Of a DNA stretch of 64,000 nucleotides, positions 11,640 through 47,979 are shown piece by piece; the first letter of the stretch is position 1, and each line of letters begins with the position of its first letter. Below the pieces are notes generated by a model. That model was not told where the DNA came from. It ran no database searches and was given only the letters and a program-made list of their open reading frames with translations. The translations under genes and the position numbers were made by a program. Origin of the DNA: Aminobacter niigataensis (GTDB taxonomy: Bacteria; Pseudomonadota; Alphaproteobacteria; Rhizobiales; Rhizobiaceae); contig NZ_JACHOT010000004.1 in assembly GCF_014200015.1 (NCBI RefSeq), positions 310,001-374,000 on the forward strand, in the 5' to 3' direction.

Positions 11640-11645
11640 GCCAAA

Positions 11646-11686
11646 CTGCTGCGCCGCCGGATCGAAACGATCCGGCGGCGCAGCAG
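11646..11686 (+). terminator. Strong hairpin after glutamate dehydrogenase
   Basis: A perfect 19-base-pair inverted repeat (11646-11664 and 11668-11686) with an AAA loop starts six bases after the stop codon. No T-run follows, so it may act as a terminator with factor help or as a 3' stabilising structure. Confidence 0.75.
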
Positions 11687-11845
11687 TGACTTGGGGCGCG
11701 CCTTTCCTGCGTCCATTGGGGCGCCCGGCGCTCTGGCCTGCCATTTTCCTGTTGAAGCGCTAGGTTGGCGGGCGTAGGTCTGTGGGTGAAATCCCGACTG
11801 ACCCCCCTTCATCACGCCTCAAAGGCAAAACCCGGCAGCGCGACC

Positions 11846-25224: not shown

Positions 25225-25350
25225 CATCGAATTTGTCGGGCCTACCTCCTCCCAGGTTTCCGACGAATAGGTCAGCGCCTACCTCCTCCCAGACGCTGGC
25301 CACCAATACGACACCCGCCGGACCTCCTCCCCCGGCGGGTGTTGTTTTTT
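25225..25350 (+). ncRNA. Alpha-r14-type trans-acting sRNA with three CCUCCUCCC loops
   Basis: Three consecutive stem-loops each expose CCTCCTCCC, the anti-Shine-Dalgarno motif. Hairpin 1 pairs TTTGTCGG (25232-25239) with CCGACGAA (25260-25267), motif at 25245-25253. Hairpin 2 pairs GGTCAGCG (25270-25277) with CGCTGGCC (25294-25301), motif at 25282-25290. Hairpin 3 is the terminator, ACACCCGCCGG (25311-25321) with CCGGCGGGTGT (25332-25342), motif at 25323-25331, followed by TTGTTTTTT. This matches the alpha-r14 family of rhizobial sRNAs and, in principle, the cuckoo RNAs of Rhodobacter, which are thought to sequester ribosome binding sites or proteins. Size is about 125 nt. The exact 5' end and family membership are inferred. 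The 278 bases downstream, before the aldehyde dehydrogenase gene, show no gene. Confidence 0.85.
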
Positions 25351-42363: not shown

Positions 42364-44118
42364 ATGGCATTCGGGTTCATCAAGAAAGTCTTTTCCTTCG
42401 GCAAGAAGGAAGCCGTCGAGCAGCCGGCCGAGGACGAGGTCCTGCCGCCGCTGAATTTCGACGCGCTGGAGGCGCTGAAGCCGACGGAAGAGACTCCGGT
42501 CGCTCTGGAAACGCCCGTTGCAGTGGAGACGCCGGCAGTCCCGGTCGAGGAGCCGAAGCCGGAACCTGCTCCTGAAAGGCCGTCGGCGCCGCCAGTTGTG
42601 CCCGAACCGAAGCCTGCCGAGCAGCCTGTACCGGTCGAGCCCGCGCCGCAGCCTGCCCCCGAGGAGGAGCCCAAGCCCGAACCCGCGCCGGAAGTTCCTG
42701 TTGTCGAGCCGGAAAAGCCCGCCGAGCAGCCTGCGCCTGCGCCGAGCCCGGTCGAACCCGCGCCTGCGCCGGCAGAAGTTCCGCTGCCGCCGGCGGAGCC
42801 GTCCACGCCCGAGCTGCCCGAGGAAGTCCCTGTCCAGCCCGCGCCTGTGCCAGCCGAACCGCCGCTCGAAGTGCCTGTTCGCGATGAGGTTGCGCCGCAG
42901 CCCGAAGTGGCCGCCGAAGCCGAGCCTGCGCCTGCGATTCCCCTCCCCCTCGAGGGGAGGGTGGCCGCGCAGCGGCCGGGAGGGGTCGCCGAATCGTCGG
43001 ACGCGACACAATTCGAAGCTACGCAGGCGCCGAGCACTGCCGAGACAACCCCCTCTGGTCCTTCGGACCATCTCCCCCCCGAGGGGGGAGAGGACGCCCA
43101 GCCATCGCCTGTTGCCCAGAAACCCGCGGCCGGCAAGGTCACGGTCCAGAAGAAGGTCGAGCAGAAGGCTGAAATCGTCGAAGCTGCCGCGCCAGCGCCG
43201 CGGCAAAGCTGGTTCCAGCGCCTGCGCCAGGGCCTGTCGCGCTCGTCGAAGGAGCTGTCGGGCAACATCGCCGGCATCTTCACCAAGCGAAAGCTCGACG
43301 AAGACACGCTGCAGGACCTCGAGGACGTGCTGATCCGTGCCGACCTCGGCGTCGAAACCGCGCTGCGCGTCACCGATGCGCTGGCCGCCAGCCGCTACGG
43401 CAAGGACGTCTCCGACCATGAGGTCCGCTCGATCATGGCGGTCGAGGTCGAAAAGGTGCTGAAGCCGGTGGCGCTGCCGCTCGAGCTCGACCTGTCGCAC
43501 AAGCCGCATGTCATTCTTGTCGTCGGCGTCAACGGCACCGGCAAGACCACGACCATCGGCAAGCTCGCGGCCAAGCTCACAGAGGGCGGCCTGTCGGTCA
43601 TGCTCGCCGCCGGCGACACCTTCCGCGCCGCAGCCATCGAGCAGCTGAAGATCTGGGGCGAGCGGACCAAGTCGCCGGTCATCGCCAGCAAGCTGGGCGC
43701 CGATGCTGCCGGCCTCGCATATGACGCTTTCGAGAAGGCCAAGGAAGCCGGCTCGGACGTGCTGATCATCGACACCGCCGGACGCCTGCAGAACAAGGCC
43801 GAGCTGATGGCCGAGCTGGAAAAGATCGTGCGCGTGCTCGGCAAGCTCGATCCCGAAGCGCCGCACACGGTGCTGCAGACGGTCGACGCCACCACCGGCC
43901 AGAACGCACTCAACCAGGTTGAGATATTCCGCAATATCGCAGGTGTGAATGGCCTGGTGATGACAAAGCTCGACGGCACGGCGCGCGGCGGTATTTTGGT
44001 CGCAATCGCCGCCAAACATAAGCTGCCGGTCTATTTCATCGGTGTCGGCGAACAGGTCGACGATCTCGAACCCTTTTCGGCAAGCGATTTCGCCAAGGCG
44101 ATCGCAGGAGTCGCCTGA
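42364..44118 (+). CDS. ftsY: Signal recognition particle receptor FtsY
   Basis: This 584-residue SRP receptor docks ribosome-nascent chain complexes at the inner membrane. A long Pro/Glu/Ala-rich acidic A domain covers about residues 20-275. The NG domain follows, with G1 GVNGTGKTT (388-396), [20 protein letters not shown] and [10 protein letters not shown]. The A domain contains an in-frame copy of a palindromic repeat (about residues 192-243), which changes its composition abruptly. ATG at 42364 gives the family opening [14 protein letters not shown]. Bacterial FtsY proteins vary greatly in A-domain length, so the insertion is probably tolerated. Confidence 0.96.
42937..43093. repeat. Palindromic mosaic repeat inserted in frame within ftsY
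   Basis: About 157 bases consist of two hairpin modules. The left has CCCCTCCCCCTCGAGGGGAG and GGCCGC/GCGGCC with GGGAGGGG. The right has GGTCC-TTC-GGACC followed by CTCCCCCCCGAGGGGGGAG. They resemble the repeats at 2945-3093 and 47790-47945. The reading frame passes through without a stop and translates to a Gly/Pro/Ser/Thr-rich stretch (for example [17 protein letters not shown]) unlike the Pro-Glu-Ala repeats around it. Confidence 0.8.
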
Positions 44119-47736: not shown

Positions 47737-47789
47737 GAGGGCTGCCTTTTCGTTCGCGCGCGGGCATTGAAAAGTTGGCGCTTCTTCCC

Positions 47790-47945
47790 ACCCCCCTCTG
47801 TCCTGCTGGACATCTCCCCCACGAGGGGGGAGATCACGCCGTCATCGCTGCCCGCGCCAATCTCCGGCGCCGCAGGACGGGCGAAGCGGGTCGAGCTGCC
47901 AATCTTCCCCCTTGTGGGGGAGATGTCCGGCAGGACAGAGGGGGG
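47790..47945. repeat. Palindromic mosaic repeat between ccmA and ccmB
   Basis: The ends form a long inverted repeat, CCCCCCTCTGTCCTGC at 47791-47806 and GCAGGACAGAGGGGGG at 47930-47945, extended inward by GGACATCTCCCCC and GGGGGAGATGTCC. Each end also carries its own small hairpin (CTCCCCCACGAGGGGGGAG; CCCCCTTGTGGGGG). The unit is about 155 bases, a size and design shared with the ftsY and 3 kb elements. Confidence 0.85.
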
Positions 47946-47979
47946 CAACGTAGGGCGCTGATGCGGGCCGGATACGGCG

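Follow-up and report, generated by a model that had tools for sequence, protein, structure and literature searches.

Short palindromic elements that lie in frame within protein-coding genes are best described in Rickettsia (the RPEs) and Wolbachia, where, in the available portions of two reports (PMC10969869, PMC2229807), they measure about 100-150 bp and occur either between genes or in frame in unrelated conserved genes. Other families share single traits with them: the GTAG/CGTC REPs are short palindromic dimers that sometimes lie in frame in genes, and the GTAG repeats go with RAYT genes (excerpts of PMC3733652); the enterobacterial RU elements are small and mobile, with frames that stay open where they lie inside genes (excerpts of PMC2759123); and the CIR repeats of Caulobacter and Brucella, also in Alphaproteobacteria, have two arms and a linker and are reported, in the excerpted text of PMC2229807, as not intragenic. 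A further group, the triplex-forming repeats known from E. coli and from over 260 genomes (Holder et al. 2015, PMC4666352, in part), combines a pyrimidine-purine hairpin with a following G-rich strand, sometimes in inverted pairs (TM_ECO and PIT); the portion of that paper at hand describes those of K-12 as invariably intergenic and saw no connection with mobile elements. Among nucleases, Vsr-like enzymes and EDxHD homing endonucleases possess a domain related to DUF559 (PMC3943268, in part), and Caulobacter VsrA, a DUF559 protein, has been proposed as a mismatch-repair nuclease in the available part of PMC12907096, where no word starting with "palindrom" occurs.

The window analysed here is a stretch of 64,000 nucleotides from the 5.28-Mb genome of Aminobacter niigataensis (G000; the other Aminobacter genomes are G001-G009), whose FtsY resembles named Aminobacter records most closely. 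The window contains the following features:

42364 to 44118, plus strand: ftsY coding sequence, 584 amino acids, with the SRP54_N and SRP54 GTPase domains on its C-terminal side (Pfam, 599-aa stop-to-stop frame).
42937 to 43093, plus strand: in-frame palindromic element of ftsY, read as about 52 residues in the A domain.
42940 to 42987, plus strand: left arm of the element, forward; hairpin 1, hairpin 2 and G-run (59.5 bits, arm covariance model).
42988 to 43044, plus strand: core between the arms, 57 nt, of varying length among species.
43045 to 43092, minus strand: right arm of the element, reverse, hairpin 1 outermost (45.9 bits, arm covariance model).
47787 to 47949, no strand assigned: second window element, B-type, arms oppositely oriented with G-runs outermost; not classed as in frame.

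The FtsY frame, which opens at a conserved start (42364) and closes with the stop codon (44116-44118), runs uninterrupted across the whole palindromic element, as a sequence-only reading of this DNA had claimed, and the host region is, as it also held, the Pro/Glu/Ala-rich A domain. That reading described two hairpins; a palindromic element does occupy the place, but it is built of four, arranged as two inverted arms that each comprise a pyrimidine/purine hairpin on the outside, a second hairpin and then a G-run. The fold of 42931-43099 was better than that of nearly all dinucleotide shuffles, both as DNA (z -2.7, with 2 of 200 shuffles as good) and as RNA (z -3.1, 1 of 200). AlphaFold2 predicted a nearly structureless A domain, with a pLDDT of 28-33 for the insert-bearing blocks, in a model based on an alignment of 20 sequences whose overall mean pLDDT was just 51. 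The reading had also named two intergenic repeats of the same style in the window: one was recovered, at 47787-47949; the inverted repeat at 11645-11687 (perfect over 20 bp, 3-nt loop), which may or may not be the second one intended, is of another kind, outside the ftsY-arm family. The sole Rfam match in the whole window at gathering thresholds is the alphaproteobacterial sRNA ar14 (25228-25347, plus strand, 90 bits).

We searched the ten genus genomes for FtsY at E<=1e-60, and nine of them yielded one, G007 (81% complete) giving none. The element occupies the same site in five of the nine (G000, G001, G003, G008 and G009), about half of it is kept as a relic in G006, and the proteins of G002, G004 and G005 have no element there, which bears out the proposal that about 52 residues had been added to the A domain; G001, G003 and G009 carry an additional element closer to the N-terminus. 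Of 80 named FtsY loci found, 75 had a protein of at least 450 aa, and 20 of these 75 contain at least one arm in the A domain (nhmmer score of at least 15), the arm density being higher in A domains (36 in 93,414 bp) than elsewhere in the loci (25 in 480,307 bp). The FtsY of Mesorhizobium sp. L-8-3 (L050, 2185-4251) holds five ftsY-type arms within its A domain. The segment had been expected to be specific when set against orthologues, and this stood for most non-Aminobacter proteins, a search with the right-arm peptide finding no segment near GKVTV at the other named loci; it did not stand for Pseudaminobacter salicylatoxidans (L062) and Mesorhizobium sp. L-8-3, in which a right-arm-like segment lies 11 residues before GKVTV, near the place it takes in Aminobacter (21 to 29 residues before GKVTV in the three named loci that matched). 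Its occurrence in two other genera counts against a simple recent insertion, and may reflect either an old insertion that was then lost or repeated insertion at a favoured place. Judged from its sequence, the segment in ftsY is a real, translated and mobile-looking palindromic element in an essential gene.

The arms of this element are dispersed, paired and inverted in the genome, in agreement with the earlier description of a dispersed repeat. No second full-length copy of the 157-bp element is among the 50 BLAST matches listed at E<=10, for which 40 candidates out of 56 were scored; the match at ftsY is the only one of them to span it. A covariance model built from 23 arms gave 134 matches in G000 at E<=1, including 90 with E<0.01 and 117 of at least 36 nt; these figures come from the best 150 of 4658 first-look candidates, a census that may have missed some arms and whose weakest members may be chance. 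The 134 matches form 77 clusters: 26 B-type pairs (G-runs outside), 23 A-type pairs (hairpins outside), 24 single arms and 4 mixed clusters, simple inverted pairs therefore accounting for 49 of the 77. When all 77 were inspected, 45 stop-free frame rows were obtained, spread over 32 clusters.

A Pfam scan of 20 ORFs, which account for 22 of these 45 rows, brought the number of in-frame paired elements to nine in eight genes, named here from their Pfam families: ftsY, cobN (two), hyuA, hyuB, lhr, xdhC, an ATP-grasp CoA ligase and probably cobG. As hyuA and hyuB share one long frame (L221), the nine insertions lie in seven frames. Thirteen of the 20 scanned frames were left uncounted (12 without a family, and L237 matched on one side only), and further in-frame copies are possible in the 23 rows outside the scan. 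The count of coding copies and frames proposed at the outset thus gave eight further copies in seven genes other than ftsY. Family matches flank the insert on both sides in cobN (both copies), hyuA, hyuB, lhr, xdhC and the CoA ligase; cobG has a firm NIR_SIR_ferr match before its insert and a match below cut-off after it, and in ftsY a conserved N-terminus precedes the insert and Pfam matches follow it. Codon-usage calling flagged six of the nine in-frame clusters, missing ftsY, one cobN copy and hyuA. In lhr and xdhC the insert separates domains, and in cobG the two half matches; it comes right before the ATP-grasp domain in the CoA ligase, before SRP54_N in ftsY and at the edge of Hydantoinase_A in hyuA. 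In cobN and hyuB it falls inside a single Pfam family, whose match is split into three stretches in cobN and resumes at profile position 110 in hyuB. A domain border is therefore common but not required.

Two of these proteins show different inserts at one site in sister species. Between the two domains of XdhC, a first insert is present in G000, G001 and G003, a second in G007 and G008 and a third in G009, and the plain linker without insert is found in G002, G004, G005 and G006. RNA folds of this site in eight of the ten genomes reached -91 to -119 kcal/mol with an insert (174-186 nt) and -47 kcal/mol without one (123 and 129 nt). In CobN, the B-type element occupies site 1 in G000; G001, G003, G007 and G008 hold a second insert at that site and G009 a third, G002 and G005 have part of a B-type arm, and in G004 and G006 there is a short linker. 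At site 2, G000, G003, G006 and G007 have the B-type and G001, G008 and G009 another insert; G002 and G005 show a stub, and G004 has nothing. This other insert partly resembles the B-type, and replacement and divergence of the B-type cannot be told apart. The CobN of G006 has a TGA in one matched stretch, upstream of the compared site and not within it. No target-site duplication or exact junction could be established at the compared sites, where local deletion or change blurs the junctions. Further in-frame insert kinds were noted in the cobN (L316-L325) and xdhC (L328-L338) genes of congeners, with peptides such as SPFTGRRSRQGDEGQ and PSPRNDGEK...PLSPSLRGEGKGEG, and the in-frame total is therefore probably above the count from the arm model.

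Set beside the known systems, the Aminobacter repeat resembles the RPEs and the Wolbachia palindromes in lying in frame in genes and also outside them, and resembles coding palindromes in being missing from some orthologues, as in FtsY, CobN and XdhC. It differs from the RPE in taxon, in arm design and in having a candidate partner gene, a comparison made by description only. Because in-frame palindromes were already known from Rickettsia and others, the Aminobacter arms are a new family of a known kind; the notion of a rhizobial protein-coding palindromic element in an essential gene, comparable with those of Rickettsia and Wolbachia, holds in this form. Among the matches listed from the open-licence PMC literature, none reported in-frame palindromic elements in Rhizobiales. 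RU elements, as characterised in the excerpts of PMC2759123, differ from the arms in sequence and hosts. Unlike TM_ECO and PIT, ftsY-type arms have a second hairpin ahead of the G-strand; the ftsY arms miss the strict TM_ECO/PIT consensus, which was found neither in the window nor in 69 stretches of the same genome. The CIRs share the two-arm plan, and the intragenic ftsY element is unlike them; membership was considered and rejected, as GANTC showed no enrichment, being present in 2 of 22 and in 3 of 25 cores, with 3 sites in each set where 1.1 and 2.0 were expected; the ftsY core contains one GANTC. What is new here is the candidate partner, a gene for a DUF559 nuclease, which the sequence-only reading had not noticed.

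DUF559 (PF04480) has 30 matches across all ten Aminobacter genomes; two of the matches are halves of a single gene, and flank homology groups the loci into about nine places. An arm match at E<=1 is present in the 3-kb stretch of 28 of the 30 loci, L160 and L163 having none in theirs; L157 and some other loci have an arm on one side only, and 18 of 29 passed a stricter motif test. Seven orthologous loci have a B-type pair immediately upstream of the gene; at other places arms flank it on each side with their hairpins at the outer ends, the layout of the ftsY element with the gene replacing the core. In the unit of L174 and L177, one arm is identical to that of the hyuB insert (48/48) and matches the ftsY left arm at 45 of 48 positions, so that short inserts and a longer gene-carrying unit have ends in common, a MITE-like trait; the gene looks broken in L174 and is open in L177. 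Alignment of one DUF559 place in eight species showed the full unit in three, a solo arm in four and nothing in one (G008 matching in part and G007 not at all). Of the three DUF559 genes in G000 itself, L160 lacks an arm match, and the arms of the other two are nearest to other arms of the same genome, not to the ftsY arm, which means that the best-matching unit occurs only in congeners and counts against DUF559 as the mover. In L158, L260, L272, L340 and L378, DUF559 falls in very long frames (about 600-1000 aa), perhaps GC-rich read-through. Plasmid carriage was also considered and rejected, proteins like the L177 DUF559 occurring in just 45 of 72,556 plasmid records, every one below 60% identity.

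Against solved nucleases, the DUF559 profile matched 3hrl (E 5e-37), PvuRts1I (1e-4) and the mobile-intron protein 3r3p (0.008), which we take to be the EDxHD enzyme I-Bth0305I. Among 13 members, the NCBIfam DUF559 model matched all 13 (the member shown being below cut-off) and vsr matched 2, and weak matches to anti-phage proteins were obtained with PADLOC (DpdF 10, ProA 5, Hhe 4) and NCBIfam (Hhe 2); these would also be consistent with DUF559 serving in defence. In an alignment of DUF559 proteins, residues D51, E62 and D64 are invariant. DUF559 genes, which may spread by a kind of homing, adjoin palindromic arms, unlike the intron- or intein-linked EDxHD homing endonucleases (PMC3943268, in part).

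The tight association of DUF559 genes with palindromic arms is well supported beyond the genus. We sampled DUF559 loci from the order, the class and the phylum, with cold-shock genes as controls (29 of 30 loci usable). In 300-bp flanks, the inverted-repeat score exceeded the control maximum of 23 at 49 of 81 DUF559 loci (Fisher p 7e-10): 14 of 28 in the first sample, from the order, and, in the class and phylum samples, 22 of 30 in the same class, 7 of 11 in another class of the phylum and 4 of 5 in the same order; the same family gave just 2 of 7, which counts against the proposed role of DUF559. To be set against these figures, cross-locus flank scores were also raised (mean 16.9, 95th percentile 28 and highest 87 over 738 pairs) because the arms are alike, and 14 of 28 own-flank pairs lay above 28. 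Direct-repeat scores between DUF559 flanks reached 72, and L366 and L373, among the highest inverted repeats, are of a different sequence type. A motif test for an 8-bp pyrimidine/purine hairpin plus G-rich strand, after 8 of the 81 loci with short flanks were dropped, was positive within 300 bp at 53 of 73 foreign DUF559 loci, on both sides at 24, and at none of the 29 controls (p 1e-12), both p-values being rough since kinship among loci is uncorrected; the test failed at 20 of the 73. In the next 300-bp bins the motif occurred at 2, 1, 1 and 0 of the 73 loci, and relatedness does not explain this steep fall with distance at the same loci. The strict TM_ECO consensus lies beside 18 of the 73 foreign DUF559 loci and beside none of the 29 controls. 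Among the matches listed from the open-licence PMC literature, none linked DUF559 genes to palindromic repeats.

In E. coli K-12, ycjD is a DUF559 gene (L392, 5408-5761), and triplex motif 9 (L392, 5203-5240) lies 167 bp away, between fabI and ycjD, which has an arm on one side only. Matches to ycjD are found in 3365 of 5426 E. coli genomes. A clean empty site was sought and rejected: two strains lacking ycjD carry efflux genes there, and no simple insertion is seen.

From the arm architecture and dispersal, the presence and absence of inserts between species, the association with DUF559 genes and the shared ends, it is in our judgement probable that the ftsY insert belongs, as a short non-autonomous form, to a palindrome-ended mobile class whose long form carries the DUF559 nuclease gene between its arms or next to them. 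We infer that DUF559 moves the arms. The nuclease would recognise the arm as a hairpin, triplex or cruciform and nick the arm or the target, and repair would then copy the arm unit into a new place, akin to the spread of homing endonucleases; short copies without the gene would use the enzyme in trans. Copies inside genes would survive where a stop-free arm frame meets a flexible protein stretch that tolerates about 36-72 extra residues, such as the FtsY A domain, and the insert peptide would need no function.

The explanation that competes best, though we regard it as unlikely, is that slippage during replication, template switching or hairpin recombination spread the arms, and that DUF559 proteins are passengers, or defence or repair enzymes kept near hairpins. 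The deletions and solo arms at the compared sites fit such events, as do the weak anti-phage matches, the ties of triplex repeats to local instability in E. coli reported in the available portion of PMC4666352, and the mismatch-repair role proposed for Caulobacter VsrA in that of PMC12907096. Against it, inverted arms stand beside DUF559 in many genera and drop away at once with distance, and slippage alone does not place a gene between two arms.

That the translated segment is under selection for a peptide function in FtsY is, to our mind, quite improbable. Five species keep the element in frame, and a similar segment lies near the same FtsY place in two other genera. Three congeners, however, have no element, and the variability of the element by codon position is 10, 12 and 17 over 46 codons, vs 11, 6 and 136 in the GTPase part (297 codons); the A domain before the element gave 36, 39 and 96 (139 codons). 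The nine insertions read different frames, the forward arm being in phase 0 six times, in phase 2 three times and never in phase 1, which, as read from the sequence, is because the TTGA loop gives a stop in that phase. The use of at least two frames speaks against one selected peptide, and selection on the insert peptide was rejected as unsupported by either measure.

Movement by a RAYT-type (Y1/HUH) transposase, as proposed for REPs, has a general likeness of the elements to paired REPs in its favour. We give it very little credence, since PF01797 was found at E<=0.001 in none of the ten Aminobacter genomes and the same search was positive in 5 of 14 control genomes, although a distant or lost enzyme is possible; in this lack of RAYT the genus differs from carriers of the GTAG repeats (PMC3733652, in part). 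Removal of the segment from RNA or protein in the manner of an intron or intein, so that it is never in FtsY, recalls the distant relationship of DUF559 to a mobile-intron nuclease but is very improbable, as nine copies are stop-free in the frame of the gene, which splicing would not require, and no Rfam intron is present in the window at gathering thresholds.

A wider proposal extends the reading of the ftsY insert as a derivative of a DUF559-carrying class: DUF559 Vsr-like nucleases would be the mobility enzymes of palindrome- or triplex-ended elements in Alphaproteobacteria and beyond, with short derivatives that include the intrastrand-triplex repeats as well as those elements of Aminobacter and Mesorhizobium which enter the same protein sites in frame again and again. 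We consider the case for it and the case against it evenly balanced.

With these elements, the gain of protein segments from selfish palindromes extends to free-living soil bacteria, and the occurrence of different inserts at the same protein site in sister species offers a natural series for the study of segment acquisition. Should DUF559 prove to be the mover, a functionally uncharacterised domain and a set of repeats without a known source, the triplex motifs of more than 260 genomes as presented in the available part of PMC4666352, would explain each other.
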